From Pseudarthrobacter chlorophenolicus A6 (GTDB taxonomy: Bacteria > Actinomycetota > Actinomycetes > Actinomycetales > Micrococcaceae): 64,000 bases of DNA. Below the pieces are notes generated by a model. That model searched no databases. It saw nothing but the letters and a program-made list of their open reading frames with translations, and had not been told where the DNA came from. Below, piece by piece: positions 1 through 16,574 of the stretch. The translations under genes and the position numbers were made by a program. The stretch is from NCBI RefSeq assembly GCF_000022025.1, contig NC_011886.1, positions 186,001 to 250,000 on the forward strand. Reading direction: 5' to 3'. Each line of letters begins with the position of its first letter. Within the stretch, counting starts at the first letter, position 1.

Positions 1-725
1 TCCTCGAGCGATAGACCCTTCCGGGTTGCGTCGGGTTCTTGCGCACTACCCGAAAAATCGAACGGGTCCAGAATCCTCTCGATATCCATGCGCAGCAGTG
101 CCTGCAAAGCGAGTGCTTCCTGCCCGGTTATCGAATCCGGCGCCAGATTGGGGTGAGGTGCTATGAGCCGGGGAGTGATGAGGGCATGCCGGATTTCATC
201 TGCCGGGGGAAGATGCACCGCACCCGTCCACGCCGTTCCGTCCCAATTGGGGGCCGCGAGTTGTGTGAGGGCGACATCGGACAATGCTTCATTGTGATCG
301 GAGTCGACGGTCTGTGAGGCCGACAGGAGTATTTTCGCGCCCTTGCCGGTCGAGACGACCCGCTCAGGTGTTACGTGAACCCAGTATGAAAGATTCTTCT
401 CTTGGTCGCGCAGGATGACCACGTGTGGCAGGGCGTGCCTGAGCCAGTAGTCGAAGTGTTCACGGTCGCCTTCAGTGAACCACCAACCGGTGATCGTGCC
501 GTCGGTGTCCCTCTGTGGGGAGGTGAAGTATGACGGTCCGGTCTTGACTTGGGCTCCCATAACGGCGCCGAGTTCGAACCTGCGGGTGTCCCGGGGACGC
601 AGATACAAATCTGTGCCTGTGTCGTGCCGGCTGTCGATCACGCCGCCCCAGCCCAAACGCTCGAATTGCGCCAAGACCTCAGACTCACCCGATGTTCCAA
701 TAGCTTCATTTTTAGGCGCCCGCAC
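1..725 (-). CDS. DUF4365 domain protein (3' end cut by window edge)
   Basis: An open frame of 241 codons runs off the left edge. It starts at a GTG directly after the TAA of the upstream gene, with GGAGG five bases before the start. The translation has the DUF4365 pattern: GESEVLAQFERLGW, then D-T-G-T-D-L, then AQVKTGPSYF, then a DYWL..ALPHVVIL segment and YWVHV. This family is widely found in genomic islands and is thought to have a restriction-endonuclease-like fold (D...QVK core); its biochemical role is not established. Coupling to the upstream frame (stop and start adjoin) suggests one operon. Third-position GC is weaker than in the metabolic genes to the right, consistent with acquired DNA. 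Confidence 0.7.
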   Translation of the reverse strand, partial: MRAPKNEAIGTSGESEVLAQFERLGWGGVIDSRHDTGTDLYLRPRDTRRFELGAVMGAQVKTGPSYFTSPQRDTDGTITGWWFTEGDREHFDYWLRHALPHVVILRDQEKNLSYWVHVTPERVVSTGKGAKILLSASQTVDSDHNEALSDVALTQLAAPNWDGTAWTGAVHLPPADEIRHALITPRLIAPHPNLAPDSITGQEALALQALLRMDIERILDPFDFSGSAQEPDATRKGLSLE

Positions 726-1890
726 TTACGCCTCCCTCATATCGTCGGCTACAACGCGGACGTTGCGCATTGCAGAACCAGTGAATACGAGCGGAACAAA
801 TGAGTCTCGAAACCCGATTCCTGCGGGACGCTGGACAGGCCCGCCACCGGGAGGATTGGTAAGTGGGAACCTCATCCCGACCGGCGCCTTGGCAGAAATA
901 TGGCGAGGGTGTGGTCCGCCCACCGGATAGCCAGGGTGCGAGGGCCCCTGGCGATTGGGGGGGGAGGTTCGGCCTCCCCCCAAAATGTCTTGCAGCTGCC
1001 ACATGGAACATCGCGCCATGCGTCCAAACGATCATGTACGCCTCGGCGAGAATAGCAGGGACATCCACCCTCAACTGGGTCAGTTCCAGCCCCTGACGAT
1101 GCCCGGCCACCCTGGGTGCCTGTGCGAGTACCTCGATAACTGGGCGATCAAAAATATCAAGGGCATCCGGTCCTGTCAGTGCACTAAGTGGAATGGTCCC
1201 GTCTGCGCTGGGAGGAGTGGAAGCGAACGATACTTTGAGGTCATCGCGAGCCCGGACCGATAGGCCGTGCTTGACCTTATTGTGAGCGGCGTTGAGTTGA
1301 AGTTCGTGTCCCGCGAGGAGGTCAATCGCAAACTGGAGCCAGTCGGCGAACACATTGGAGGCTGATGCAAGTTGCTCGGTCATCCCGCCCTGAAGGTCAT
1401 GTTGGCGGAGAACCAAGCGGGCAAATTTCATCGGAGCCTCTGGAGACGAAAAGAACTCCTGGAGTTGTTCGACGACCTGATCGAGTTGGTTTGGCCCCGT
1501 GGACAGCGCCTCCCAGACGCATGGTTCCGCAACTTTCATTCCTGAGGAGAGCGCCGCCGTCAACCGCACAAGGGACTCGGCCGCGTGGTGCCGCAGGGCA
1601 TAGGCATCGGTGGCAACTTGTGTTGTTATGGACTTTGGAGAGATATCGGGAAAAAAGCTGTCAGATTGGCCGAGAAACTGAGCAAATTTCTTAGCTTTTT
1701 TATCTTGGTCTGGCACATCTTCATTTGCCATTACGGGATGTGTCTTGCTGTCACCGCCACAGTCCGCCCACCGCAGCACCATTCCAATTCGCAGGCTGAA
1801 GTACCCGTAGGGATCAGACGACAGGAAAGTGTCGTCAAGCTCCTGGCGCTGCTCAGTCGTGAGGTTCGGCCCGGCAGGTGGAAGATACAT
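726..1890 (-). CDS. Hypothetical protein, apparently frameshifted at a C8 tract
   Basis: I do not recognise the family. The first frame starts at ATG 1890, directly after an in-frame stop, and reads as a mostly helical soluble protein (segment LQLNAAHNKVKHGLSV around residue 205). Past the run of eight G (C on the coding strand) at 957-964 this frame turns Arg/Cys-rich and implausible, ending at 712. The neighbouring frame then reads sensibly to ..NVRVVADDMREA and stops at 726, exactly abutting the GTG of the DUF4365 gene. The intact protein is therefore most likely the first frame up to the tract joined to the second frame after it, about 388 residues. This could be a true mutation, a phase-variable tract or a sequencing error. 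Confidence 0.55.
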
Positions 1891-2419
1891 CTAATAAGCG
1901 TAGGTCCACGCAACCCACTGACTTTGCCGCCCCGCCGAGCCATTAGGAAAGGAAGCCTCATCTAATCGACTGGTGTTGCAAGAAAGGTCCGCCAAGTTCT
2001 TGGCAGACTGAAGTTACCCCCATCACAAGCTTGAACCCGACGGTGAAAGACTCATGTTAAAGGGCTGCAGCGTGGGCAAATCCTGAATATTTTGTTCGAC
2101 TTAGGCCGACGCCGACGTAGCGGCTGAACAGATCTGACGGCGGAAAGTAGGGGAGAGAACGCCATCCCATGGCGCCAGCGAATACCCCTTCCGAAGGGGC
2201 GACCAGGTGCCGTGTGATACCGGCACAGACAGGGGATTTGTCCGATAGCCGGAAGGGGTCGGAAGTGGCGAAACTCCGGTCAAATAGCGGTTGGCCGAAG
2301 TTCCGCGACCAACTCTGCAGGGTGAACCTTGAAATTGGCTGGGAACGACGTCGGCATCCGGCAATGACTTGTCGAAACAGACGACGGAAGAGGGTCGTAG
2401 GCCGGGGGAGTGGTTGGGT
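1891..2419. other. 529-bp gap without a recognisable gene
   Basis: No convincing reading frame is seen. Frames on both strands here are proline/serine/arginine-rich and do not resemble known families. A short perfect inverted repeat, CCCCTTC-C-GAAGGGG, lies at 2185-2199. The left part must contain the promoter of the minus-strand operon that begins at 1890. The right part lies just downstream of the recombinase gene and could hold decayed mobile-element DNA, which is an inference. Confidence 0.4.
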
Positions 2420-2986
2420 TCATTCCAGCTGGGCGTGGCGGAGGTACTGGTAGACCGTCTCCCTGCTGATGCCGTAGTCACGGGCGAGGACGACTTTCGG
2501 GATGCCAGTGCCGGCGCGTTGGACTAGTTCGGCCGCGCGTTCCGGTGTCAGGGTCTTCTTCCTTCCCTTGTAGGCGCCGCGTTGCTGGGCCAGGGCGATG
2601 CCTTCACGCTGACGCTCTCGAATGAGGGAGCGTTCGAATTCGGCGAAGGCGCCCATGACCGAGAGCATGAGGTTGGCCATGGGGGAGTCCTCACCGGTGA
2701 AGACAAGCTGTTCTTTGAGGAACTCAACCCGCACTCCGCGCCGAGTGAGACCCTGGACCAGCGCGCGCAGGTCATCGAGGTTTCGGGCGAGCCGGTCCAT
2801 GCTGTGCACGACGACGGCATCCCCGTCCCGGACGAACCGGAGCAGCTCGGTCAACTGCGGCCGGGCGGTGTCCCGGCCGGAGGCCTTGTCCGTGAACACC
2901 CGGTCCAGGACCTGGCCGTCGAGCTGGCGCTGCTCATTCTGGTCAAGGGTGCTGACCCGTACGTACCCGATGCGCTGACCATTCAC
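2420..2986 (-). CDS. Serine recombinase (resolvase/invertase family)
   Basis: This 188-residue protein has the small serine recombinase layout. The N-terminal catalytic domain has the nucleophile in YVRVS (Ser12, with Arg10). The VVVHSMDRLARN segment and the FAEFERSLIRERQREG region of the long E helix follow. A C-terminal helix-turn-helix (GIPKVVLARDYGISRETVYQYLRHAQ) would bind DNA. Length and order match Tn3-type resolvases and Hin/Pin-type invertases. No transposase gene is next to it, so it may be a remnant of a transposon or a stand-alone recombinase. It sits between the DUF4365 operon and the block bounded by dif-like motifs. Confidence 0.93.
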   Translation of the reverse strand: MNGQRIGYVRVSTLDQNEQRQLDGQVLDRVFTDKASGRDTARPQLTELLRFVRDGDAVVVHSMDRLARNLDDLRALVQGLTRRGVRVEFLKEQLVFTGEDSPMANLMLSVMGAFAEFERSLIRERQREGIALAQQRGAYKGRKKTLTPERAAELVQRAGTGIPKVVLARDYGISRETVYQYLRHAQLE

Positions 2987-3181
2987 GGAGGCCTCCCGTT
3001 CCTCGGTATGTGAGAACGAGTGTCGGCCCGCGCCGAGGGCACGTCAAGACCGGGCACGCGGGAGCTGGCCCTAACCTAAAGGACGGCGGCCATGTCCCCG
3101 CGCTGGGAGGAGCCTCACGGTGGTGTAGGTTGCTCACTGGTCAGAAAACAAGCGAGACGAAAGAAATGAGGACCACCACCA

Positions 3182-3484
3182 GTGGCTGCCGATTACGACG
3201 AAGTCCGTTCCGACGTCAAGGAATCCCAGGAACGCTCCCTGGAAGCCCTGAAGTCCGCCAGCGCCCCGGATGCCCGCAGCGTCGTCACCGAACTCGACGA
3301 AGCGGACGCCCTCGACGAAGGGCTGACCCCGGGCGGGGAAATCGTCTCCGAAGAACTCATCGTCCAAGTCGTCCCGCAGGCCGCGGACGAGTTCACATGC
3401 TCATCCTGTTTCCTGGTCCGGCACCGGTCCCAGCTCGTACGCGAACGCAACGGCCAGTTCTACTGCATCGAGTGCGAGGGCTGA
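3182..3484 (+). CDS. DUF4193 family protein with two CxxC pairs
   Basis: A 100-residue acidic protein matches the actinobacterial DUF4193 family: N-terminal AADYDEVRSDV, a central acidic stretch (ELDEADALDE), and a C-terminal zinc-ribbon-like part with CSSC and CIEC pairs (FTCSSCFLVRHRSQ...FYCIECEG). The start is GTG at 3182. The function is unknown; in other actinobacteria the family is a single-copy housekeeping gene, and the four cysteines probably bind a metal. Its GC-rich codon use resembles the core genome. It lies outside the dif-like blocks, just before the first motif copy. Confidence 0.88.
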   Translation: MAADYDEVRSDVKESQERSLEALKSASAPDARSVVTELDEADALDEGLTPGGEIVSEELIVQVVPQAADEFTCSSCFLVRHRSQLVRERNGQFYCIECEG

Positions 3485-3570
3485 CGGCCCGGGCGCCGGC
3501 TACGACGTGCCCGCCGGCGGGCCTGTGGGAAGGCCGCACATGATGCATCTGACGCAATAGGCAGGGGTCA

Positions 3571-3594
3571 GCTTTACATAACGTTATCGGCGTT
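3571..3594 (-). repeat. dif-like motif copy A
   Basis: Read on the minus strand it has the left arm AACGCCGATAA (3594-3584) and a right arm TTATGTAAAGC (3581-3571). The right arm matches 9 of 11 positions of the actinobacterial dif XerD arm as I recall it. The arms are separated by only 2 bp, where dif has 6. A hairpin-forming segment lies on the left-arm side at 3613-3625 (GGGG-N5-CCCC). Confidence 0.55.
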
Positions 3595-3781
3595 TAAGAA
3601 TGGGTGGGGGAGACACCCCGGAACGGGCCCGGAGTGGCCTGTTGAAAACGTGTCCAGTTCGTCCCGTTTGCGCAGTTGCCGGCCGAGTCAGGACGTTGTC
3701 AGGCGCGCAATCTGGCATTTTGCGCTGCAGGGCCATTCAGGTTGGTGGGACCGCACCGGACGCGGTCGCCGGCGACTGTCT

Positions 3782-4015
3782 ATGGTATCGAGTGGTGACC
3801 CGCAGAAATGTGGTCCTTTTGCTCAGTACCGGCAGGCAACTGACCTGGGTTTGCCGGCAGGGTCCTACGAAATCGGTGGGCAGGTGAAGCCGGTTGACGA
3901 CGAATTGGTGGTCTCGGTGCCGACTATCCATACCCTGATGGTGCCGGTCGCTTGGCTACACAGCCTGATGTCCGAACCGTCGCGTAACCACAGGAACGCC
4001 AGCGGCGGGTTCTAA
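3782..4015 (+). CDS. Possible small hypothetical protein between motif copies A and B
   Basis: A frame of about 77 codons starts at ATG 3782. Its central part (LGLPAGSYEIGGQVKPVDDELVVSV) reads like ordinary protein, but there is no strong ribosome binding site and no family I recognise. It could be a relic of a longer gene. Reported only because the block is otherwise empty. Confidence 0.22.
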   Translation: MVSSGDPQKCGPFAQYRQATDLGLPAGSYEIGGQVKPVDDELVVSVPTIHTLMVPVAWLHSLMSEPSRNHRNASGGF

Positions 4016-4419
4016 ATGGGCTCCAACGTCGCCAGAGTGAACATATCGAGAAGGCGGCAAGGGCTGCAGTGGGTGCTGGCTTCCGGAGTGCTGAGACCAA
4101 AGCCAGCCCCACCCCCAGCAACTCCTCTTGGGAAGGCCGTAACGCCCTTCCCAACAAGGACAAAGAGGAGCCCACTGCCCATCATCAGCGACAACACGCG
4201 ATTGAGCAACGGGTCAGACGATGCCGCACCGGGCGGCGTCACACCACGTCGCGGAGTCCTGAGCTGCTACGGACCTTACCCTCCGGTAAGGAGTGCCGGG
4301 AAAGTCGTGGGATTATCCACTCGATGTTGAGGGCAATGACGGGTACTCAGCCGCGGAATCCCGCCGGTCCCCCACCGGCGGGCTTCCCTTTACTACCGAT
4401 GTCCTGAGGGTTTTCTAAC

Positions 4420-4430
4420 TTATCGGCGTT
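4420..4430 (-). repeat. dif-like motif copy B (left arm only)
   Basis: The sequence TTATCGGCGTT (minus strand AACGCCGATAA) is identical to copies A and D. No recognisable second arm is present at the expected 6-bp spacing. As in copies A and C, a small hairpin followed by GAAAGGG lies just beyond the left arm (GGGA-N5-TCCC at 4443-4455). Confidence 0.5.
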
Positions 4431-4670
4431 TTGGCACCCGAGGGAGAGCGTCCCGAAAGGGGACATCGTCGATGCTATCGAAGGTCCCACGCACGCCTTT
4501 GCCCTCCGGGCTGGCGGTAGAAGCTCGATGAACCCAGCCAGCCTTTCTGCACGCGTCCGTCAAGTCAAAGGGTCCTCCCTCGACACAATTAACGAATGCT
4601 CGGACATTACTAACTCAATTTGATAATCAGCATCTAGGATCACTTTGGCCGCGCTCAGGCGGCAGTAAAA

Positions 4671-5978
4671 ATGACTCTAGGAGAGCACTTGTTCAGAAAA
4701 ATATTGGGGGCGACCATTGGGGCGGTCGTAATAGCGGCAACGAGCTTGGTGGGCATTACCGCCGCCCAGGCCGCTCCCGTGCTGTACCTGCCGTACCCGG
4801 CTGGCGTGTCTCACACCGTGACGAATTACCCGCATCCGGCCGACGGCTATCAGAATAACGCGGTCGACTTCGATCTGGCCTTTGGGGAAGCCATCTTGGC
4901 GTCTGGTGCCGGCAGGGTGTACGCGGCAGGGTATGACAACAACCCTGCCCCGGAGACTAACGGACTGCAGGTCTTAATCGACCACGGCGGAGACCAGTGC
5001 ACCCAATACGGGCACCTCAGTAGCGTCGCCGTCACCGTGGGCCAGAACGTTCCCCAGGGCCAATATCTCGGGGGCGCCGGTAGAACCGGAGCCGCGACCG
5101 GCTATCACCTTCACTGGAACCTCGTACGGTGCTCTGACCGCAAGGCCGTATTTGGCCCGGTCGCAACGGTCGAAAACCCGACCGCCTCATATTGGGTCGG
5201 GGAAGTCCTGCGCAGCCAGAACGCCCCAAAGTCGCCTGGCGCGGACGGTGAGCGTGTGTCCGACTTCAGCGGAGATGGGCAGTCCGACGTTCTGGGTGTG
5301 GACGGCAACGGCGACTTCTGGTTCTACCCCCACAACGGCAACGGACTCAGCGCGCGATCTAAAATCGGTAGCGGCTGGGCCAACCACAAACACGTGATGT
5401 CTGCAGACTGGAGCGGTGACGGTGCCGCAGACGTCCTGGGCGTCGACCCTGCCGGAGATCTCTGGTACTACCCCAACAACAACTACCAACTCTCCAGCCC
5501 CATGAAAATCGGATCCGGCTGGGGCAACTTCCTTCACGTCGCGGCGGCGGACTGGAGCGGTGATGGCCAAGCCGATGTCATCGGCGTCGATGCCAACGGC
5601 GACCTCTGGTACTACGCGCACAACGGCAATGGACTCAGCGCCGGTGTCAAAATCGGCAGCGGCTGGGCCAACTTCAAACAAATGGCGGCGGCGGACTGGA
5701 GCGGTGATGGGCAAGCCGATGTCATCGGCGTCGATGCCAACGGCGACCTCTGGTACTACGCGCACAACGGCAATGGACTCAGCGCCGGCGTCAAAATCGG
5801 CAGCGGCTGGGCCAACCACAAGCAAATGATCGCTTCGGACTGGAGCGGGGACGACCAGGCCGACATCCTCGGCGTCGATGCCAACGGCGACCTCTGGTAC
5901 TACGCGCACAACGGCAATGGACTCAGCGCCGGCGTCAAAATCGGCAGCGGCTGGGCAACGTTCCGACACATCATGTAG
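4671..5978 (+). CDS. Secreted M23-type peptidase-like protein with five C-terminal VCBS/FG-GAP-type repeats
   Basis: This 435-residue protein starts with a signal peptide (hydrophobic core to about residue 33, AAQAAP cleavage). Residues 40-165 form a LytM/M23-like domain with His105, GHLS (His115) and a HLH motif (His146/His148). The HxxxD zinc motif reads N-N-A-V-D, so the usual first His is Asn62 and Asp66 is kept. Residues about 197-435 are five tandem 48-residue repeats (DWSGDGQADVIGVDANGDLWY type) with Ca-binding-like DxDGxxD patterns. M23 enzymes cut peptidoglycan cross-bridges; the missing ligand makes activity uncertain. A strong hairpin follows the stop. It is the only clear gene between motif copies B and C. 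Confidence 0.85.
   Translation: MTLGEHLFRKILGATIGAVVIAATSLVGITAAQAAPVLYLPYPAGVSHTVTNYPHPADGYQNNAVDFDLAFGEAILASGAGRVYAAGYDNNPAPETNGLQVLIDHGGDQCTQYGHLSSVAVTVGQNVPQGQYLGGAGRTGAATGYHLHWNLVRCSDRKAVFGPVATVENPTASYWVGEVLRSQNAPKSPGADGERVSDFSGDGQSDVLGVDGNGDFWFYPHNGNGLSARSKIGSGWANHKHVMSADWSGDGAADVLGVDPAGDLWYYPNNNYQLSSPMKIGSGWGNFLHVAAADWSGDGQADVIGVDANGDLWYYAHNGNGLSAGVKIGSGWANFKQMAAADWSGDGQADVIGVDANGDLWYYAHNGNGLSAGVKIGSGWANHKQMIASDWSGDDQADILGVDANGDLWYYAHNGNGLSAGVKIGSGWATFRHIM
5262..5975 (+). repeat. Five tandem 144-bp coding repeats
   Basis: Repeat units begin at 5262, 5406, 5550, 5694 and 5838, with an exact 144-bp (48-codon) period. Units 3, 4 and 5 are nearly identical at the DNA level while units 1 and 2 have diverged, which indicates recent duplication at the 3' end of the array. 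The array is prone to slippage and recombination, and unit number probably varies between strains. Confidence 0.9.
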
Positions 5979-5988
5979 CGACCACCTA

Positions 5989-6038
5989 AAGGATCCTCCT
6001 TCCCGCGACACGACATGCGCGCAGGAAGGAGGATCCTT
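5989..6038 (+). terminator. Strong hairpin downstream of the M23/VCBS gene
   Basis: A perfect 15-bp inverted repeat (AAGGATCCTCCTTCC at 5989-6003, complement at 6024-6038) encloses a 20-base loop, 11 bases after the stop. There is no clear U-run, so it is either an intrinsic terminator of the GC-rich type or an mRNA 3' stabiliser. Confidence 0.7.
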
Positions 6039-6057
6039 CGGTATCGGAACGTCCGCC

Positions 6058-6347
6058 TCAAGTACTGAGGTCGAAGTCCAGATCGAGGCCTTCGAAAGCG
6101 CCCAGTGCCTTCCATATGGCTCCCACCATGGTGGTGCCCAGCGTCGCGGGGATCGATATCCTGTCCGCGGACGTGAACTGCTCCCGGCCCAGGCCGGCGA
6201 ATGCGACGATGTCCCTGGCCGGAGACTGGAAGGTGTGGAACGGGCCCAGCAGCCGTACTTCTGAGGCGGGTCTCCTTGGACGGCTACCGCCCAACTTCCC
6301 GAGGAAGTGCTGTCCCCGGAGGAGTTAGCCTGTATTTGCGCACGCAC
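6058..6347 (-). pseudogene. Possible broken hypothetical gene
   Basis: The minus-strand frame ending at 6058 (PFHTFQSPARDIVAFAGLG...GLDLDFDLST) reads like real protein but lacks a good start. The adjoining frame upstream supplies a plausible N-terminus (ending GSWAVAVQGDPP) from 6347. Joining them needs one frame change near 6250-6260. No family is recognised. This may be a decayed cassette gene or a coincidence. Confidence 0.3.
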
Positions 6348-6405
6348 GGTCCCGCAACAAGTTGATACCCGCCCTTCTCACCAACACGTGAGGTGCACTC
6401 CACCA

Positions 6406-6433
6406 GCCTTACGGAATATCCATTATCGGCGTA
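6406..6433 (-). repeat. dif-like motif copy C
   Basis: On the minus strand the left arm is TACGCCGATAA (6433-6423), followed by a 6-bp spacer (TGGATA) and a weak right arm TTCCGTAAGGC, giving the 11-6-11 layout of dif. A hairpin, GGGG-N5-CCCC followed by GCGAAAGGG, lies at 6446-6467 and closely resembles those near copies A and B. Confidence 0.5.
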
Positions 6434-6647
6434 TCAAAATGAGCAGGGGAGGCGCCCCGCGAAAGGGATTTTCTCGATCCGATGGCCTGAGGCGCGGGAA
6501 CGTTGAGTTCGTCACCGATCTCGGCGGCGGCACCGGACGTCTCCGCCCTCGTAGTGGCCCGCTCGGAGGACCAAAAGCCCACATCAACTAGTTGTTTTTC
6601 AAGGCATGACGCCGAATGCGTTCCGTACCCGGATGCAGAGGGCGCGG

Positions 6648-6944
6648 TCATGTGGCCGCGGTCAGCAGCGCATCTACGGCCGGCATCCCTGCGCAGATGA
6701 CGCCGGACAGGCGCATCAGCCGCAGGTCGTTCGCGATGATCGAGCCCAGCGTCTTCGCTTTGCCGGGATGCCAGCGCGGCACCAGCTCTGCGTAGAGCCC
6801 CAGCGCTTCCTCCTCGCGACCAAGGAAGAGCAGGGCGTGCGCATAGTTCACCAAATGCATCAGGTTCTCCGGCTCGCGCACGTGGCCGTTGCGACTCTCG
6901 GTGAGCGCATCCCCCGCTCGCCCCGTGTAGAGGTGGACCGCCAA
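6648..6944 (-). CDS. Small helical-repeat (TPR-like) protein downstream of the nuclease-like gene
   Basis: A 98-codon reading is chosen from TTG 6944 because GGGGAG lies about 7 bases upstream of it. Longer in-frame extensions would overlap the preceding gene and read poorly. The protein is helical with one TPR-like pair (NLMHLVNYAHALLFLGREEEALGLYAELV), then a short C-terminal helix. The start is 43 bases after the stop of the 805-codon gene, so the two are probably co-transcribed. I cannot assign a function; a partner, regulator or immunity role for the large protein is only an inference from position. Confidence 0.55.
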   Translation of the reverse strand: MAVHLYTGRAGDALTESRNGHVREPENLMHLVNYAHALLFLGREEEALGLYAELVPRWHPGKAKTLGSIIANDLRLMRLSGVICAGMPAVDALLTAAT

Positions 6945-6987
6945 TGGCGATCTCCCCTTCCCGTTTTCTGAATACCAGTTACGCCTG

Positions 6988-9405
6988 CTACTCGCGCTTC
7001 TTCTTCCCTCGACTGCCCCGCAACCTGACTGTGCTGCGGCGAGCACTGGGAGGTAGGTTAGAGAACGTCATTTTGAGACTTCGCAGCGGGGCGATGTCTA
7101 CTGCGTAGTCTCGGTCGATGGTTCGTTCCTGAGGCCGGCCCCGGTACCGTGTTCCGAGTAGTGACGAATCAGGCTGATATAGAAGCAACATCGATCTGTC
7201 CGAATGCGTCTGGTACTGCTTGGCATCCATGTATTCGGCAAGGTGCTCTGTGCTCGCATCTTTCGGCGCGACCGATATTGTGAGTAACCAGGAGCCGTAG
7301 GAACCTGCACTGTGCGTTGTCAGGCTACGCTCAATGCCGCCACCCTGGGCTGCGCGCCTCAGCTCCCTTAAGTTTTTCCCGATATTTCGTTGAGCGCTTT
7401 CGCTCAGTCCTACCAGATCGGCGCCAAACCTTAGCCATCCAGGAGTCTGGGCCGCTTCACTAGAGGATAGGTACTGCTCAACCCACGGCTGCTCCTGCCT
7501 TACAGGCTTCGCCGCCTGAGTCCGTGAAAGGCCTTCTTGCCAATAGAACCATGCATCTAGTGGATCAGTGAGCGTCCCTAGCCGAACACGGGACTGCTCT
7601 TCATAGCGGCGCGCGTCAGAAGCTTTGATGGGCCGTTCCAGTGGGAGTTGTTTTGCGATCTCCTGTGGGTCTGGGTTGAAGTACATGCCGCCGTCAAGGA
7701 ACCACATGAACATGTCCAGCTCGTCGACGCCATTGACCATTGTTGCGAGTCTGCGGCCTCGGCGACGGCGCAGGTACTCGAGGAACTGGGCAGGGTGATC
7801 GAGGGTTCGGCTTAGCACCATCAGGTCATGCATGCTGACGATCCATGGGACTTCGGCGGACTCGATGATGCCTTTGTCCGCCAGCACATTCATCGACAAT
7901 GACAGCGGCCCCATGTCATCGAGCATTACGACGATTGAATGGACCTCTGAAGCTGAAGACAAGTCAATCCATTTGCCTTCGACGCTCCAGGCACCTCCGT
8001 TGGTCGTTATGAGACGGGTCAGCCGGTCGGCCTGAGCGCTGCCCTCTTTTAGAGTTTTTTCCAGGTCCTTAGCTAGCCGCTGCGCGTTGCCGCTTCGGGA
8101 TTTTTCCGTGATAGAGGCGGCTTTCACCTCAACGCAGATGGCAACCCCGTCGACCAGGAACAGTATGTCGGACTCGAACTTGTCGGTATCTACAGCAGTA
8201 CGGTCGGCTGTCTTCCCCAGGCTGGGGGTATCCGCGGCATCAATCGGGCCAATGTACTTCTGTCCCTCCCAACGCGGTTTAGCTCCATGGAGCATCTTGC
8301 CAAGCAGGTCAGCGGCTTTGGACTCGGAGTAAACTGCACGGCGCTTGTCATACTTTGGCCACATCTTGGCAGCACTGTTCTTTTTCTCGGCAGCGGCTGC
8401 AATCAGCCCGCGTTCAAGGTTGCGGCGTAACTCGTCTTCGCTCAAGAAGCCGTTGAGAAGGAGGTATTCGTCCTCATCCGCGATGCACCCCCATGGGGCG
8501 GGAAGTTCACCATCAACGAACCGGAGGACCGGGTTGACGTCGTTTTCCGCCGGCCGGGAGGTGCTGAAGAAGTCTAAGACCGCCCGCGCAGTCGTTTCTG
8601 CGACTCCGGAACGGGTGGCGACATCAGCCGGTGCAACGGCGCCGAACAACCTACACTCATTCATCATGATGTTGATGTCGCGTAGGAAGGCCTCGGAGTC
8701 GGCTGGCGCGCCGGCTTTGGTGGCTTCCCCAATCCGGTCCCGAGCACCAAATAGCCGCTCATTCATCAGCGCTGTTGATGCCTCGCGGACGGCACGGATG
8801 TCGTCGAGGGTGAATCCGAGTACATGCTTGATGACAGACTCAACGGACGGGTGGCCCAGCAGCTCGCTATTTACTTCCCTGGCGATTGATTCATACTGAC
8901 GTCCGCGGACAGACAGTTCGTACCCCACGAACTCACCAGCGAGAGCGCCGAGGGGCTGGTTGGCCTGCCGGCCCTGAAAGAGGGCGAGTGTACGCGCAGC
9001 GGTTACGATCTGAGCTGCCAGGCCAAGGGCTTCTGCAGGGTTGGGTTGGCCGGAGTTTGCCCCCGTTAATGGCTGCCGCGGCAGCCCCATGCCCATCAGC
9101 GTCAGTGCCACCACATCCTGGGCGGCTTGGGAGCTCTCTACCTGACTATCGCTCTCACGGAGGTCCGTGAAATCCCACGGCCCGGCGGCGAGGCGGATGA
9201 ATGCAAGCGCGTCGAATGAGTCAAAGCCCCGCAAACATCTTTCTAGAGAGGTGCGGGCAGCCCCTATCACGTCTCGCAGATTTGACTGAGGGTCCTCATC
9301 GCTGCCGATGTTCTCTACCATCTGCTGGTAATAGGCAAACGCTTTGTTGAGGTTTTGGGTGACGTTGCTGCCCACAAAGTTCAGCTGTCCGGGTGCGGAG
9401 CTCAT
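6988..9405 (-). CDS. Large hypothetical protein with a PD-(D/E)XK nuclease-like core
   Basis: This 805-residue protein has no signal peptide or membrane segment. Around residues 405-425 it carries FESDILFLVDGVAICVEVKA, a hydrophobic strand-D-x(10)-E-V-K pattern like the catalytic core of restriction-type (NERD/Mrr-like) nucleases. It is followed by a Lys/Arg-rich helix, as is usual. The N-terminal ~350 residues are helical; the C-terminus is basic (RLRGSRGKKKRE). No helicase or methylase neighbour is present. It lies between motif copies C and D with a small helical gene directly downstream. Its codon use is less GC-biased than the genes to the right. A role in defence or DNA handling is inferred from the core motif and island setting only. 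Confidence 0.7.
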   Translation of the reverse strand: MSSAPGQLNFVGSNVTQNLNKAFAYYQQMVENIGSDEDPQSNLRDVIGAARTSLERCLRGFDSFDALAFIRLAAGPWDFTDLRESDSQVESSQAAQDVVALTLMGMGLPRQPLTGANSGQPNPAEALGLAAQIVTAARTLALFQGRQANQPLGALAGEFVGYELSVRGRQYESIAREVNSELLGHPSVESVIKHVLGFTLDDIRAVREASTALMNERLFGARDRIGEATKAGAPADSEAFLRDINIMMNECRLFGAVAPADVATRSGVAETTARAVLDFFSTSRPAENDVNPVLRFVDGELPAPWGCIADEDEYLLLNGFLSEDELRRNLERGLIAAAAEKKNSAAKMWPKYDKRRAVYSESKAADLLGKMLHGAKPRWEGQKYIGPIDAADTPSLGKTADRTAVDTDKFESDILFLVDGVAICVEVKAASITEKSRSGNAQRLAKDLEKTLKEGSAQADRLTRLITTNGGAWSVEGKWIDLSSASEVHSIVVMLDDMGPLSLSMNVLADKGIIESAEVPWIVSMHDLMVLSRTLDHPAQFLEYLRRRRGRRLATMVNGVDELDMFMWFLDGGMYFNPDPQEIAKQLPLERPIKASDARRYEEQSRVRLGTLTDPLDAWFYWQEGLSRTQAAKPVRQEQPWVEQYLSSSEAAQTPGWLRFGADLVGLSESAQRNIGKNLRELRRAAQGGGIERSLTTHSAGSYGSWLLTISVAPKDASTEHLAEYMDAKQYQTHSDRSMLLLYQPDSSLLGTRYRGRPQERTIDRDYAVDIAPLRSLKMTFSNLPPSARRSTVRLRGSRGKKKRE

Positions 9406-9479
9406 GGCGCAAGTATCGCAGTCGCCTCCGACAAACTTGATGTGATTACCCGGGACTCATTTGTCCTGTCAACCTGACA

Positions 9480-9507
9480 ACACGACATAAGGTCAATTAT
9501 CGGCGTT
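9480..9507 (-). repeat. dif-like site D (complete 28-bp layout)
   Basis: On the minus strand it reads left arm AACGCCGATAA, 6-bp centre TTGACC, right arm TTATGTCGTGT. This follows the actinobacterial dif pattern (left arm ..CGCCGATAA, right arm TTATGTCAAGT, quoted from memory) with matches through GCCGATAAT and TTATGTC. It marks the change from accessory to core-like sequence, 112-139 bp before the PPK2 gene. It could be the chromosomal dif itself or an att site of a Xer-dependent element. Confidence 0.55.
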
Positions 9508-9618
9508 GAGACTCACGGTGTAACTGCACGATCCGCGACATGCCGCGGAAATGCACTCACTGGCCTATTCGAGCAGCCGGGTCACGTTCCGTTCATGTGG
9601 GGCTGTTAGATTCCGGCG

Positions 9619-10578
9619 GTGCCGAAGGGGCGAGAGGAGACTGTGGTGGATGTTGGCGGGAAGTTGACGCCCTGGGGCCAGGGGTGGGTCAGGGAGAACC
9701 TGCGTGAGGCCATCGACCGCCTGGTGGATCTGGGTTACACGGTGACGGGCGGCCAGGGCGATGACCCGGAGCTGATTGATCCCGGCGGATCGGCAGTGGA
9801 GACCTGGCGCGAGGACTATCCCTATGGGGAGCGGCTGACCCGGGAAGAGTATGACCTGGAGAAGTACCGGCTGCAGATCGAGCTGCTCAAGTTCCAGTAC
9901 TGGGGCCAGGACCAGGGCCTGAAAACGGTCATCGTCTTCGAGGGCAGGGACGCCGCCGGTAAGGGCGGGTCCATCAAGCGTTTCACCGAACACCTGGACC
10001 CGCGCTCCGCCAGGACGGTTGCCTTGGCCAAACCCTCGGACCGGGAACAGGGGCAGTGGTATTTCCAGCGCTACATCCAGCACCTGCCCACCGCCGGGGA
10101 GATCGTCATGTTCGACCGCTCCTGGTACAACCGCGCAAACGTGGAGCGGGTCATGGGATTCTGCAGCGACGCCGAGTACGAGACCTTTATGGCACAGGCG
10201 CCCCTGTTCGAACAGATGCTGGTGGACTCCGGGATCCACCTGACCAAGTTCTGGTTCTCCGTCACCCGCCTCGAGCAGCGCACCCGGTTCGCGATCCGGC
10301 AGATCGACCCCGTCCGGCGCTGGAAGCTCTCTCCGATGGACCTGGCATCCCTGGACCGCTGGCAGGACTATACGGAGTCGAAGGAACAGACTTTCCTGCG
10401 GACGGATACAGACCATGCGCCCTGGATCACCATCAAGTCCAACGACAAGAAGCGCGCAAGGCTCAACGCCATGCGCTATTTCCTCAACCAGTTTGAGTAC
10501 GACGGCAAAGACCCCTCCATCGTCTTCGGACCCGATCCCCTGATCGTCCGGCGGGGCCGGGACGCTGTGGGCGACTGA
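9619..10578 (+). CDS. ppk2: Polyphosphate kinase 2 family protein
   Basis: PPK2 enzymes transfer phosphate between polyphosphate and nucleotides. The protein has the family signatures in order: Walker A-like GRDAAGKGGSIKR (about residue 110), a lid region QGQWYFQRYIQHLP, and Walker B-like VMFDRSWYNRANVERVMGF. C-terminal RRWKLSPMDLASLDRW and YTESKEQTF blocks follow. The full reading from GTG 9619 gives 319 residues. AGGAG at 9635-9639 points instead to GTG 9643 or 9646 as the start, losing 8-9 residues. Whether it favours ADP or GDP, or synthesis or use of polyphosphate, cannot be read from sequence by eye. Confidence 0.93.
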   Translation: MPKGREETVVDVGGKLTPWGQGWVRENLREAIDRLVDLGYTVTGGQGDDPELIDPGGSAVETWREDYPYGERLTREEYDLEKYRLQIELLKFQYWGQDQGLKTVIVFEGRDAAGKGGSIKRFTEHLDPRSARTVALAKPSDREQGQWYFQRYIQHLPTAGEIVMFDRSWYNRANVERVMGFCSDAEYETFMAQAPLFEQMLVDSGIHLTKFWFSVTRLEQRTRFAIRQIDPVRRWKLSPMDLASLDRWQDYTESKEQTFLRTDTDHAPWITIKSNDKKRARLNAMRYFLNQFEYDGKDPSIVFGPDPLIVRRGRDAVGD

Positions 10579-11718
<1,140 letters not shown>

Positions 11719-11741
11719 CCCGGCCGGCCGCCCGCACGAAA

Positions 11742-13517
11742 TCAGGCAATCAGCGCCAGCACGCCGCCCGCGGTGACCACGCCGCCGGCATCCACCCGCA
11801 CGTCGCCAAGGGTGCCGGCGCGGTGGGCTGTCACCTGGGTTTCCATCTTCATCGCTTCAAGGACGACGACGGGATCCCCGGCCGCCACCTCGGCGCCCGG
11901 CTCGACCAGCCACTTCACCACGGTCCCTGCCATGTCCGCCCGCAACTCACCGGGGGCCGCGGCACCTGCGGCAGTGCCGCCGTCGTGCTCTCCGCTGATG
12001 GGGCCGCCCGCCAGCGTGACGCCCGCGGGAACCGGGCCGCCGGAGCGCGCCCAGCCGTCCAGCAGTGCTGCGGGCAGCCCGACGGCGAGGCGCCGGCCGT
12101 CCACGTCAACGGTGATGGTGCGCCGCGCACCGTCCGGGACGGACGTGCCGAACTCCGGGTCCGCGCCGATGGTCTCCGCGAAGTCCGTTTCGATCCAGCG
12201 CGTGTGGATGCCGAGCCCGGTTTCGGAGGTGAAATCGGGCGCCTCCACCACGGCCCGGTGGAACGGCAGCACGGTAGCCACGCCGCCGATCTGCATCTCC
12301 GCCAGGGCCCGGCGTGCCCGGCGCAGCGCCTGCTGCCGGTCCGCGCCGGTGACGATCAGCTTGGCCAGCAGCGAATCGAACTGCGGCGCCACAACCGACC
12401 CTGCCCGGACGCCGGAATCGAGGCGGATTCCCGGGCCGGTGGGGCCGCTGAACGCGGTGACGGTCCCGGGTGAGGGCAGGAAGCCGCGGCCCACGTCCTC
12501 GGCGTTCAGCCTGAACTCGAAAGCATGCCCCCGCGGAGAGGGATCGGAGGCAAACCGGAGCCGTTCGCCCGCAGCAATCCGGAACTGCTCCTGGACCAGG
12601 TCGATGCCGGTGGTTTCCTCGGTGATGGGGTGTTCCACCTGCAGGCGGGTGTTCACCTCGAGGAAGGCGACGGTGCCGTCGGCGGCCACCAGGAATTCGA
12701 CGGTCCCGGCCCCCGCATAGGAGGCTTCGCGGCAGACTGCCTTGGCGGCGTCGTAAATCTGGCGGGTCTGGCCGTCGGTGAGGAACGGGGCGGGGGCTTC
12801 TTCCACGAGTTTCTGGTGCCGGCGCTGCAGCGAGCAGTCCCGGGTTCCGACGACCACCACGTTGCCGTGCTGGTCCGCCAGGACCTGGGCCTCAACGTGC
12901 CGGGGCCGGTCCAGGTAGCGTTCCACGAAGCATTCGCCACGGCCGAAAGCCACCACGGCCTCGCGGACTGCGGAGTCGAACGCCTCCTCCACCTGGCCCA
13001 TGTCCCGGACCACTTTCAGCCCGCGCCCGCCGCCACCGAAGGCAGCCTTGATGGCGATGGGGAGGCCGTGTTCCTCGACGAAGGCGCGCGCCTCAGCGGC
13101 GGAGTCCACCGGACCGTCGCTTCCGGCCACCAAAGGCGCCCCGGCGCGGACGGCGATCTCCCGTGCCGTGATCTTGTTGCCCAGCTGCCGGATGGCCTCC
13201 GGGCTGGGCCCGATCCACGTCAGCCCGGCGCCGATGACCGCTTCCGCGAAACCGGCGTTCTCGGACAGGAAGCCGTAGCCGGGGTGCACGGCGTCCGCTC
13301 CGGACTCCGCGGCGACGCCCAGCAGCTTGGCGACGTCCAGGTAGGTTTCCGACGGCGCGTTGCCGCCCAGGCTGTAGGCCTCGGTGGCGGCGCTCACGTG
13401 CATGGCATCGGCGTCCACGTCCGCGTAGACCGCCACGGATTCGAGCCCGGCGTCCTCGCAGGCCCGGGCGACGCGGACAGCGATTTCTCCTCGGTTGGCG
13501 ATGAGGACCTTGCGCAT
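11742..13517 (-). CDS. Biotin carboxylase with C-terminal biotin carboxyl carrier domain
   Basis: This 591-residue protein has a complete biotin carboxylase module ([16 protein letters not shown]..., ATP-grasp loop [42 protein letters not shown]). Its C-terminal biotinyl domain carries the EAMKMET motif, with the target Lys near residue 560. It uses ATP and bicarbonate to carboxylate biotin. ATG 13517 overlaps the stop of pxpBC by one base (TGATG), so the two are translationally coupled. No acyl-CoA carboxyltransferase subunit is nearby. The only possible carboxyl-acceptor module is the AHS1/AHS2 (KipI/KipA) protein encoded just upstream, which is homologous to the carboxyltransferase part of urea carboxylase. 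Confidence 0.92.
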
Positions 13518-15205
13518 CAGTTGCTCACTTCGTTTAGGGAATCGTGGGAAGAATTAGCGGGGGCAGGCAGCCCGGGCGCCCAGCGGAACCGGATTGAGCC
13601 GCCCACCGGAACCTGCGCGGCGAGGTCCAGGTGGTAGTCCGCCACCACGCCGATCACCGGGTAGCCGCCCGTGATGGGATGGTCAGCCAGGAACAGTACG
13701 GGCTGGCCTTCCGGCGGGATCTGCAGGGCGCCGGCCATGGTTCCCTCACTGGGCAGCTCCCCGTCCCGGCTGCGGCGGAGCGGTTCACCGGCCAAGCGCA
13801 TGCCCACCCGGTTGGACCGCGGAGTCACGGCCCAATCCTGGCTGCACAACAATTCCAGCGCCGCCGCATCGAACCAGTCGTCGCGGGGACCGGGCACGAT
13901 GTCCAGCACCGTGACACCGGCGTCCGGGTAGTCGGGCTGCAGCTCGGGGTTGCCCACCACGTTGGAGTTTGTGGCAACCCCGGCGCCGAGCAGTTGTCCG
14001 GCGGCCAGCGGTGCCGGCCCGATTCCGGACATGGTGTCCGTGGACCGGCTGCCCAGCACGGCTTCCGCTTCCACGCCGCCGCGGATGGCCAGGTAGGTGC
14101 GGAAGCCCTTTTCCGGGGCGCCCACGGTCAGGGTTTCGCCGTCCAGCAGGGCGAAGGCGGTGGCCATGGGAACGGTGCGCACCTCTTCGTATTGGGCACC
14201 GTCTTCGTTGTTATCGGTTCCGGCAGCGGACGACGGCGTCACTACAGTCAGTGCCGACGGCGCCCCGGTGACGGCCAGTACCTGGTCGCCCACGGCCTGG
14301 ACGCGCAGGCCGCCGGCCACGCTTTCGATCACGGCGGCGGAGGGGCCGTTGCCCAGCACCCGGTTGGCGCGCCGCACCGAGGCGCGGTCCAGCGCGCCGG
14401 CTGAGGATACCCCGAGACCCGCATGCCCTGGCCGGCCCAGGTCCTGGACCAGGCTCTGGAGCCCGGGGGAGAGGATGCGGAGGCCTGACTTCACGGCGGA
14501 ATGCCCGGAGGTTTCGGCCGGTGCGGCCGGGATTTCCACGAGTTCCCGTACTGCGCGGAACTGGACCCGGTCTCCGGGAGCGGCCAGTGCCGGCTGTTCC
14601 CGGCTGAGGTCCCACATGGGTGCTGCGGTGCGGCCGATCAGTTGCCAGCCGCCCGGCGACTGCCGGGGGTAGACGGCAGAATAGTTGCCGGCCAGCGCCA
14701 CGGAGCCGGCAGGGACAGCGGTGCGGGGCGAACTCCGGCGCGGGACCTCCAGGGCCTGGTTTTCTCCCACCATGTAGCCGAAGCCGGGGGCGAAGCCACC
14801 GAAGGCCACCGTCCAGACCTGCCCTGTATGGGCGGCCACCACTCCGTCAGCCCCCAGGCCGGTGAGCCGGCCCACTTCGGCGAGGTCTTCGCCGTCGTAC
14901 ACGGTGTCGATGGTGATTAGCGCGCCCTCGGTGTGGGACTGGACCGTCAGGTCCATCGCCAGCAGACGGTCAGCCATCCTTCGCGCCGCCGCGGGTGAGT
15001 CCGCCTTCACCATCACGGTTTCGGCGGCGGCCAGGACGTCCACCTGGCCGGGAAGCGGCGACTCAAGCAGGAGGGCCTGCAGGGCCAGGACGTCGTGGAG
15101 GCCGGAGAGCTCGGCGAGCACCGCCGTGGTGCCTACCGGCCGTACGGCCAGGACCCGGGCGGACAAAGCGCGGGCTGCCGTGGCGGGGCTGCTGACTGTT
15201 TCCAT
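13517..15205 (-). CDS. pxpBC: Fused 5-oxoprolinase subunits PxpB-PxpC (KipI-KipA / AHS1-AHS2)
   Basis: The N-terminal ~220 residues are PxpB/KipI-like ([41 protein letters not shown]). The rest is PxpC/KipA-like ([63 protein letters not shown]). With PxpA, such proteins cleave 5-oxoproline to glutamate using ATP. I place the start at ATG 15205, just after the MFS stop; an upstream ATG at 15268 would add 21 residues and overlap the MFS gene by 44 bases. The fusion of B and C is a common variant. The same domain pair forms the carboxyltransferase of urea carboxylase, which matters because a biotin carboxylase follows directly. Confidence 0.92.
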
Positions 15206-15224
15206 GGGGACCCGGCCGCGCCGC

Positions 15225-16574
15225 TCAGGCGTGGCTCTCCTTTGCGCTGTTGTTGAGGAGGCGGACATCTTCCTCAGGCTGCGGATCGCGGCCCAGGCGC
15301 ATGCCCACGATGGTGATGACCGCGGTCAGCGCCAGGTACCCGGCAATCAGGTGCCAGCCGCCGGAGGCCGCGCCGTAGAGGGCGGTGAAGATCAGCGGGG
15401 CCACGGCGCCGCCGATCACGCCGGCCAGGGTGTAGGCGAGCGAGCTGCCGGCGTAGCGGAGGCGGGCCGGGAACTGCTCGGTGATGAACGCGGCCTGCGG
15501 GCCGTACATGAAGGCGTGCAGGGCCAGGCCGATCACCACGCCGATGGTGAGCATCAGCACGGACTTGCCCTGGATCATCAGGAAGAACAGCGGAATATAG
15601 ACGGCGGTTGCGGCGGCGGCGATCCCATAGACCCAGCGGCGGTTGAAGCGGTCCGTGAGGGCGCCGGCGGCCGGGATGAGGAAGAGCTGGAAAGCGGAAC
15701 CGATGAGGATGGCCGCCAGCACGTTGCCGGTGGTCATGCCGAGTTCCTTGGTGGCGTAGACGGCCACGAACACGGTGAAGAGGGCGTACAGGACGTCCGG
15801 GCACAGGCGGGACAGGGCTGCCGAAACCAGGGCCTTGGGTTCCTTGGTGAAGACCTCCTTGATGGGGGCCTTGGGGCGGTCGCCGTGGGCCTGGATGGCC
15901 TTGAAGACAGGGGTCTCCTCAAGCTTGAGGCGGATCAGCAGGCCGAACGCCACCAGGAGCGCGGACGCCAGGAACGCGACGCGCCAGCCCCAGGACAGGA
16001 ACGCTTCGTTGCTGAGCGAGGCGGCCAGGACGGCCAGGACGCCGTTGGCCATGAGGTTGCCGGCGGGCGGGCCGATCTGTGCGGCGGAGGACCAGAATCC
16101 GCGCTTGTTGGGATCGCCGAATTCGCTGGAGAGGAGCACCGCGCCGCCCCATTCGCCGCCGACGCCGATGCCCTGGGCCAGGCGCAGCAGCACCAGGATG
16201 ATGGGGGCGGCCACGCCGATGGCTGAGTAGTCGGGCAGGGCGCCGATGAGGACGGTGGCGGCGCCGATCAGCACCAGGGTGAAGACGAGGACGTACTTGC
16301 GGCCCACTTTGTCGCCGAGCCGGCCGAACACCACGCCGCCGATGGGGCGGGCCAGGTAGCCCACTGCGAAGGCCGAGAAGGACAGGAGCAGCCCCACGAA
16401 CTCGTCATCCGAGGGGAAGAAGATCTTCGGAAAGACGAGGGCCGAGGCCACCGAGTAGATGGCGAAATCGTAGTACTCGAGCGAGGTGCCGGTGAGGCTG
16501 GCGACATAGGCCTTCAGTGCGCCGGCCGGCGGCTTCCTTGCCGCCGTCTTTGCTGCCTTGTTGGTGCTGGTCAT
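15225..16574 (-). CDS. MFS transporter, metabolite:H+ symporter (MHS) type
   Basis: A 449-residue membrane protein with 12 predicted helices. It shows the MHS signature SLEYYDFAIYSVASALVFPKIFFP at the first helix, the loop motif RPIGGVVFGRLGDKVGRK, and RLAQGIGVGGEWGGAVLL. MHS carriers import carboxylates, betaines or similar small acids with protons. Placement between pxpA and pxpBC in one transcription unit suggests it brings in 5-oxoproline (pyroglutamate) or a related lactam; that substrate is an inference. Confidence 0.9.
   Translation of the reverse strand: MTSTNKAAKTAARKPPAGALKAYVASLTGTSLEYYDFAIYSVASALVFPKIFFPSDDEFVGLLLSFSAFAVGYLARPIGGVVFGRLGDKVGRKYVLVFTLVLIGAATVLIGALPDYSAIGVAAPIILVLLRLAQGIGVGGEWGGAVLLSSEFGDPNKRGFWSSAAQIGPPAGNLMANGVLAVLAASLSNEAFLSWGWRVAFLASALLVAFGLLIRLKLEETPVFKAIQAHGDRPKAPIKEVFTKEPKALVSAALSRLCPDVLYALFTVFVAVYATKELGMTTGNVLAAILIGSAFQLFLIPAAGALTDRFNRRWVYGIAAAATAVYIPLFFLMIQGKSVLMLTIGVVIGLALHAFMYGPQAAFITEQFPARLRYAGSSLAYTLAGVIGGAVAPLIFTALYGAASGGWHLIAGYLALTAVITIVGMRLGRDPQPEEDVRLLNNSAKESHA

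Follow-up and report, generated by a model that had tools for sequence, protein, structure and literature searches.

Accessory modules delimited by dif-type sites have been described in Acinetobacter, as dif or pdif modules and as chromosomal dif module islands (PMC13141974, PMC11705084, PMC12907356). Other points of comparison are the integrative mobile elements exploiting Xer (IMEX), among them CTXphi, TLCphi, VGJphi and the gonococcal genomic island (GGI); the 'XER modules' of Arthrobacter plasmids; and the FtsK-orienting polar sequences (KOPS) or architecture imparting sequences (AIMS). Here we compare with these systems a locus of Pseudarthrobacter chlorophenolicus A6 (source genome G000), on whose 4,395,537-bp chromosome, contig C3, a stretch of 64,000 nucleotides (C3:186001-250000) is the window of this analysis. 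Judging from sequence comparison, we consider it probable, at roughly 0.7, that dif-type XerC/XerD sites form an array, part of which falls in the window, and bound accessory modules that were exchanged with plasmids and other species at those sites; the array would therefore work like the dif modules of Acinetobacter.

The original prediction, made from the letters of the window, had located four copies of an 11-bp XerC-like arm at 3584-3594, 4420-4430, 6423-6433 (with one mismatch) and 9497-9507, and all four are present, in identical orientation. Allowing at most one mismatch, the window contains these four matches against 0.40 ± 0.70 in 100 shuffles, none of which got to four. In the whole genome of 4.98 Mb we counted ten exact copies of the arm, AACGCCGATAA, four of them within C3:182.8-195.5 kb, and not one copy of the reversed control. 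The predicted geometry also holds. Site A (3571..3594, minus strand) joins its XerC arm at 3584-3594 to a XerD arm, TTATGTAAAGC, through a centre of only 2 bp (CG); site B (4403..4430, minus) consists of the XerC arm at 4420-4430 alone, its XerD arm being gone; and site C (6406..6433, minus; TACGCCGATAA tggata TTCCGTAAGGC) and site D (9480..9507, minus; AACGCCGATAA ttgacc TTATGTCGTGT) have the full 11-6-11 architecture.

The array extends 14 kb outside the window and comprises six sites at C3:172-196 kb (172301+, 182839+, A-, B-, C-, D-). Two-armed sites are found on the chromosome at C3:172301(+), 182839(+), A 189584(-), C 192423(-), D 195497(-) and 2190618(+), and on the remaining contigs, C1 (427 kb) and C2 (158 kb), which are probably plasmids and both carry dif-type sites, at C1:191338, C2:111836(+), C2:118804(-) and C2:120403. 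Exact arms that lack a XerD arm lie at B (C3:190420), C1:55663 and C3:3686097. The 11-6-11 spacing is shared by C, D, C3:172301, C3:182839 and the plasmid sites, and fails in A and B. The centre of A is 4 bp shorter than that of homologous sites in P. enclensis (L083/L038) and on plasmid pA of P. defluvii (L080/L100), where it measures 6 bp; the XerD arm of B was probably deleted, since the DNA on its XerD side is 75% homologous to the XerD side of C3:172301, whose own XerD arm persists.

As the relevant passages describe the Acinetobacter modules, the resemblance is considerable: 11-6-11 Xer sites bound accessory genes, many sites occur per replicon, arrays are found on chromosome and plasmids, modules are shared, and the elements encode no recombinase. 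The present array differs in belonging to the Actinobacteria, in centres that are not shared within the source genome, and in a XerD arm whose positions 3-4 vary. The IMEX likewise use the XerC and XerD of the host and, as reported for TLCphi and GGI in the part of PMC5357621 that treats their sites, have a XerC arm that is conserved and a XerD arm that has diverged; unlike them, the array does not lie at dif, has several sites, and shows no phage or transfer protein in a Pfam scan of ten array-region proteins. The 'XER modules' share with it Xer-type recombination, the same bacterial group and plasmid cargo genes, but according to the passages of PMC6305408 that describe them they bring XerD/XerC-like recombinases of their own and are located in umuCD, whereas the window array encodes none. 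Some sites have conserved flanks on both sides, which might or might not correspond to the controlling accessory sequences of resolution sites of the cer/psi type.

The only tyrosine recombinases available to the array appear to be those of the host. A PF00589 search of the genome returned two genes, both far from the array: C3:1702605, which is XerD above its NCBIfam cut-off, and C3:2483511, whose best match is XerC at 318.9 bits, slightly below the cut-off of 335.15. That search found no other tyrosine recombinase in the genome, and hence none in the array or on C1 and C2; the array does encode a serine recombinase beside site A.

Homology between loci ends at these sites far more often than chance would allow. 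In alignments between 41 loci with 63 sites, the source genome's own replicons included, alignment ends fell within 5 bp of 14 of the 63 sites (nine locus pairs) against 1.83 ± 1.32 at random, a count that none of 2000 draws equalled; at zero tolerance, 7 of the 63 sites coincided with an end against 1.44 at random, and one of 2000 draws was as high. Among the alignments that meet a site, 16 of 20 stop there, compared with a random mean of 11% and a highest value of 74% in 2000 draws. Because each pair enters these figures from both ends and part of the loci have common ancestry, the counts are not wholly independent of one another. A first count over all alignment ends (16 against 5.5 ± 4.9, with 17 of 300 control draws as high) was unconvincing and was replaced by the per-site count.

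At site A the breakpoint is exact. The module that ends there contains a serine recombinase (Resolvase PF00239 with HTH_7; 2420..2986, minus) and a DUF4193 protein (PF13834; 3182..3484, plus), and it aligns at 78-86% identity with P. enclensis (L083) and with plasmid pA of P. defluvii (L080, L100); in both species homology stops where the XerC arm ends on its outer side, and the sequences past that point are unrelated. The same site-bounded module thus occurs on chromosome and plasmids, and its 78-86% identity indicates that the exchange is old rather than recent. Within the source genome, C2:118782-119560 matches C3:182191-182871 across a site (C2:118804 and C3:182839, respectively) and a nucleotidyltransferase-like gene (83% over 596 bp), the gene being named by inspection only, as it has no family match. 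Homology between B and C3:172301 ends within 3 bp of the 28-bp frame of B and, in the other copy, 63 bp from its site. In the relative G119, the block with the M23/FG-GAP gene and a piece of the A-B block recur with their order kept and their sites co-oriented, but as a whole they are inverted with respect to the core sequence around them.

We infer that these exchanges were the work of XerC and XerD, that they were probably rare and passed through co-integrates joined at sites whose centres matched, and that sites would then have decayed. For anatomy we used 135 secondary sites, retrieved with patterns that leave positions 3-4 of the XerD arm free and from which the wrongly anchored L173 was dropped. 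The inner XerC arm is almost invariant in this set, and positions 3-4 of the XerD arm read CC in 44 sites, AT in 30, CT in 29, TC in 14, CG in 9 and otherwise in 9; dif sites were classified by TTATGT plus centre, so that TTAT at dif is no result. The 135 sites have 58 different 6-bp centres, and 251 pairs of sites have the same centre, where column shuffles give 84 ± 12. Recombining sites in Acinetobacter have identical centres, as stated in passages of PMC11705084 and PMC13141974, and the centres of the source genome differ; the present array should therefore be nearly inert internally, with no pair of sites predicted to recombine now. This would agree with decay after exchange, in which A and B would have died and the readable centres of the source genome would have ceased to be shared.

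Several observations weigh against this reading. Two of the four window sites, A and B, look broken and non-functional, which tempers the predicted Xer-dependent cassettes even as dif-type sites, accessory blocks, pieces from plasmids and other species ending at sites, and XerC and XerD as the only tyrosine recombinases found speak for them. The ten readable centres of the source genome all differ and none equals the dif centre, and common ancestry of loci partly accounts for the shared centres and breakpoints. Unlike the C and D modules of Acinetobacter, sites A-D are co-oriented without alternation, all being minus, and inverse neighbour pairs are limited to C3:182839(+)/A(-) and C2:111836(+)/118804(-). 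Of nine distinct loci aligned over DUF4193, four (L012, L083, L080, L077) have a site no more than 450 bp away and three have homology that extends to it; C2:111819-114083 matches the resolvase, DUF4193 and the site region, with other genes intervening between DUF4193 and the site. Homology of the M23 block with G119 is not exact to the sites, and breakpoints against relatives are inexact at C and D: homology with G038 starts at C3:195572, 65 bp outside D, and that stretch of G038 contains no such site. The idea that motifs bound the blocks thus stands exactly at A, for one copy only at B, and inexactly at C and D. Our comparisons found neither a near-identical recent transfer nor an empty site. 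Finally, a tyrosine integrase lies within 500 bp of the site in 8 of 23 cases for dif and in 5 of 78 for secondary sites, so that the site family has been shaped in part by integrase-bearing elements.

These integrases, which include one at the dif of G038 (L036) and those on both sides of the site on plasmid pCZY, are what lends weight to a different history, in which the sites are old attachment sites of dif-targeting elements whose own tyrosine integrases have since been lost and the array is their accreted wreckage. The XerD-XRE-XerC genes of the 'XER modules' on Arthrobacter plasmids, as described in PMC6305408, fit that history too. We nevertheless regard it as unlikely, as 73 of the 78 secondary sites have no integrase within 500 bp, none besides XerC and XerD was found in the source genome, and the module that ends exactly at site A bears a serine resolvase and DUF4193 instead.

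That resolvase raises a further alternative, namely that homologous recombination or the serine resolvase moves the blocks, the dif-like site being a passenger, a plasmid site for dimer resolution and a marker of where plasmid-derived DNA stops. In L079, L084, L087, L088 and L098, a match to a serine resolvase has its 3' end about 45 bp away from the XerD arm of a dif-like site, and the site A module does match plasmid DNA. A passenger would not explain why homology stops at the outer edge of the XerC arm itself, nor why some breakpoints fall at sites where the aligned DNA is not resolvase (for example L070/L089, L080/L086 and L014/L093), and we hold this explanation to be improbable. Chance, or an intrinsic repeat by which the motifs are merely a common sequence, is hardly credible in the face of the shuffle and reversed controls, and nothing was found in its favour.

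Sites of this kind are widespread. A single relaxed pattern that tolerates two mismatches finds a match in 148 of the 150 genomes sampled from the genus, and in 111 it finds at least two sites, the mean being 3.1 and the maximum 17. For the family, matching genomes number 225 of 245, and several genera have extra sites; in the order outside the family, 9 of 228 genomes have at least two sites. The reversed control gave no match in the 150 genus genomes and was non-zero in 2 of 245 (family) and 2 of 248 (order). The original prediction had proposed searching related genomes for the pattern and for empty sites; no empty site was found. Named records in the group belong to Arthrobacter/Pseudarthrobacter/Paenarthrobacter, and among the matches listed from the open-licence literature (titles and starts of abstracts) we recognised no report on dif modules in this group or on an orientation rule of the kind set out below.

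The suggestion that the array consists of elements stacked at dif, with site D as the chromosomal dif, did not survive. A dif site at C3:2190618 reads AACGCCGATAA tctaca TTATGTAAAGT and resembles the Frankia dif CACGCCGATAATGCACATTATGTCAAGT as printed in PMC3025954; it lies 2.0 Mb from the array. C3 begins with a dnaA-like reading frame (named by inspection of the protein), which places dif mid-chromosome, so that site D is ruled out as dif and the array is placed close to the origin. The signal of plain GC skew was too faint to locate the terminus. GGGGGAG is the most strand-polar of 10,038 7-mers in 252 kb sampled (54:3), and it changes strand at C3:2190618. It is directed toward dif at 51:2 in the source genome, 46:1 in G052 and 21:2 in G128, and was the top 7-mer tested in each. 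The 54:3 count omits the stretches L010, L011, L012, L103 and L122. In the last of these, which is the final 15.5 kb of C3 and enters none of these counts, GGGGGAG stands 4:0 in the unexpected direction, a point against a polarity switch at dif. Like known KOPS/AIMS, the heptamer is the most polar one sampled and switches at dif, and by its distribution we take it to be the probable KOPS of the genus; unlike them, it also stands beside secondary sites, directed outward.

Beside secondary sites, GGGGGAG points in one direction. Within 40 nt of 77 unique secondary sites, GGGGGAG occurs 26 times outward and never inward, where about 0.5 would be expected per side and direction, although the 26 are inflated by L095-L099, whose fetch pattern contained the heptamer; with these dropped, 69 sites give 21 outward and 0 inward, and for GGGGAG 30 and 2. 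Most lie 11 nt off the XerC arm or 1 nt off the XerD arm. Sixty freshly fetched sites, in a count that retains the wrongly anchored L173, gave a weaker signal (GGGGGAG 4 outward and 0 inward; GGGGAG 13 and 2), with three GGGGGAG on the XerC side against 0.41 expected (P = 0.008) and one on the XerD side (P = 0.34). In combination, 25 of 129 secondary sites have an outward GGGGGAG and none an inward one: the heptamer marks a subset of sites, in a single direction. At 22 dif sites no outward GGGGGAG was found. In the window, GGGGGAG stands at 3606..3612 (plus), 11 nt off the XerC arm of site A, directed away from it and within the conserved XerC-side flank, and GGGGAG at 6446..6451 (plus), 12 nt off the XerC arm of site C and directed outward. 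Non-permissive KOPS flanking dif on both sides lower FtsK-activated recombination, and in E. coli one such motif is insufficient, according to the passages of PMC2533119 on these constructs.

The secondary sites themselves are also oriented. From 64 genomes with a chromosome apparently in one contig, 36 with a recognised dif and at least one secondary site on the same contig yielded 101 sites; the origin was assumed to lie opposite dif. Chromosome lengths were in part rounded or estimated values, an uncertainty that bears chiefly on positions close to the origin. Along the replichore, the XerD arm is turned toward dif in 79 sites and away from it in 22 (P = 1e-8), or 50:13 by 50-kb clusters and 25:4 by genomes, with 7 ties. 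The bias depends on distance from dif, being 39:1 within 0.2 of the chromosome, 52:5 within 0.4 and 27:17 beyond (not significant). It persists when 7 doubtful sites are removed (73:21 overall, 33:1 within 0.2) and, within 0.2, when one site is taken per 50-kb cluster (23:1) or only sites with 0-1 mismatch are kept (13:1), and it appears in both arms (29:2 and 17:3 within 0.4, filtered). Gene orientation is unlikely to be its cause, as genes within 3 kb of the site, in a different set of 78 secondary sites, favour neither strand relative to it (0.496). The window is itself at odds with the rule: C and D, at 0.45 of the chromosome from dif, were counted and break it, and A and B, which the pattern did not detect, point the same way and are exceptions as well.

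That the sites near dif are oriented is plain from these counts; FtsK as the cause is what we would suggest. FtsK is reported, in work by Massey in 2004 and Bonne in 2009, to activate XerD by contact and to require DNA on the side of XerD. On its way from the origin to dif, FtsK would come first upon the XerC arm in nearly all dif-near secondary sites; such sites would not be activatable through XerD, so that chromosomal copies could persist, whereas dif-near sites in the activatable orientation would be lost by recombination. Outward heptamers would add protection in a subset of sites. In E. coli, FtsK activity peaks within a defined region of the terminus, as the part of PMC3140498 on this activity reports, and such a concentration would fit an orientation rule that fades toward the origin. 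We therefore propose, tentatively and at less than even odds, that the make-up and placement of secondary sites hide them from FtsK: near dif the XerC arm would face it, a subset would have KOPS-like roadblocks on one or both sides, and only rare recombination independent of FtsK would be left.

It is possible, if somewhat doubtful, that the rule arises instead from selection on polar motifs (AIMS) inside modules or from replication-coupled insertion, and not from FtsK reaching XerD. AIMS constraint on inserted DNA is strongest near the terminus, as reported in the pertinent passages of PMC5993296, and GGGGGAG is strongly polar here and present in the flanks of some sites. In sites that obey the rule, however, GGGGGAG on the XerC side has the wrong polarity and on the XerD side the right one, and a single polarity constraint cannot explain both flanks. 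Replication coupling alone would not fade near the origin, yet the rule does. Neither the orientation rule nor the outward heptamers appear in the Acinetobacter passages we compared; the main text of PMC12907356 nowhere contains the words orientation, KOPS or FtsK, and PMC11705084 reports, in the relevant passage, no KOPS on the plasmids studied.

Xer-site modules, which the papers found describe in Acinetobacter, here belong to the ordinary make-up of a common soil genus, where chromosomes and plasmids alike carry them and some have defence-like cargo. The orientation rule bears on the open question of how many Xer sites can be kept in one cell without rearrangements driven by FtsK and, if the proposal is true, invisibility to FtsK would be a general rule for genomes that tolerate many such sites.

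The cargo of the array is varied. Between C3:182839(+) and A(-) lies the gene of a 936-aa DUF4365 and HEAT-like protein, whose N-terminal part occupies 1..725 of the window (minus, start at 725) and which continues off the window to C3:183915; a 392-aa open reading frame follows at 712..1890 (minus), with a low G+C content at third codon positions (GC3) of 0.60 and no match in Pfam, PADLOC or NCBIfam. An M23 peptidase with FG-GAP repeats (4671..5978, plus), secreted as judged by inspection of its N-terminus, lies between B and C. Between C and D, an 805-aa protein (6988..9405, minus) has no Pfam, PADLOC or NCBIfam match at E 0.01 and 67 database relatives, including ones in Kribbella and Micromonospora at 67% identity; the names shown for these are 'hypothetical protein', one also bearing a UniRef name beginning 'Preprotein translocase s'. 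It looks like mobile cargo, possibly with a role in defence. The chromosomal cargo (DUF4365-HEAT gene, 392-aa protein) is unlike that of C2, where a plasmid module between two dif-like sites (C2:114383-116121) carries RmrT- and RmrA-like candidate defence genes.

Sequence beyond D had been described as core-like, which is true in part. The adjoining PPK2 gene (9619-10578) has a core-like GC3 of 0.86 and is shared with G038, the closest relative seen, but is missing at the same place in G119 and G052, whose homology begins at C3:196711, so that the variable region extends past D and includes PPK2.

Among smaller features, a XerD-side element, TGATGCATCTGACGCAATA, is recorded in the flank listings beside site A at 3541..3559, and a near-palindrome, TTGCATCnGATGCAA, occurs on the XerD side there (window 3541-3559), at C1:191338, at C2:111836 and at several chromosomal dif of relatives; an element like it is not present at the source genome's own dif. 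It may be a binding site for an accessory protein. A hairpin in the XerC-side flank was suspected by eye and is not claimed, the primary sequence CCCCTTTTCGG...CTCCCCC being itself conserved; window positions 1-12000 gave no Rfam match at gathering threshold.

Elements that carry integrases seem to insert preferentially at dif in this genus. Loci with an integrase within 500 bp of a dif or dif-like site are L029, L032, L036, L044, L045, L046, L050, L054, L055, L077, L091 and L102, and in L032 and L102 a tyrosine integrase lies on each side of the site. In L102, which is plasmid pCZY of P. ureafaciens, an identical integrase, helix-turn-helix and hypothetical gene set (same protein accessions) occurs inverted at 4434-7662 and 12912-16140, each copy about 220 bp from a dif-like site.

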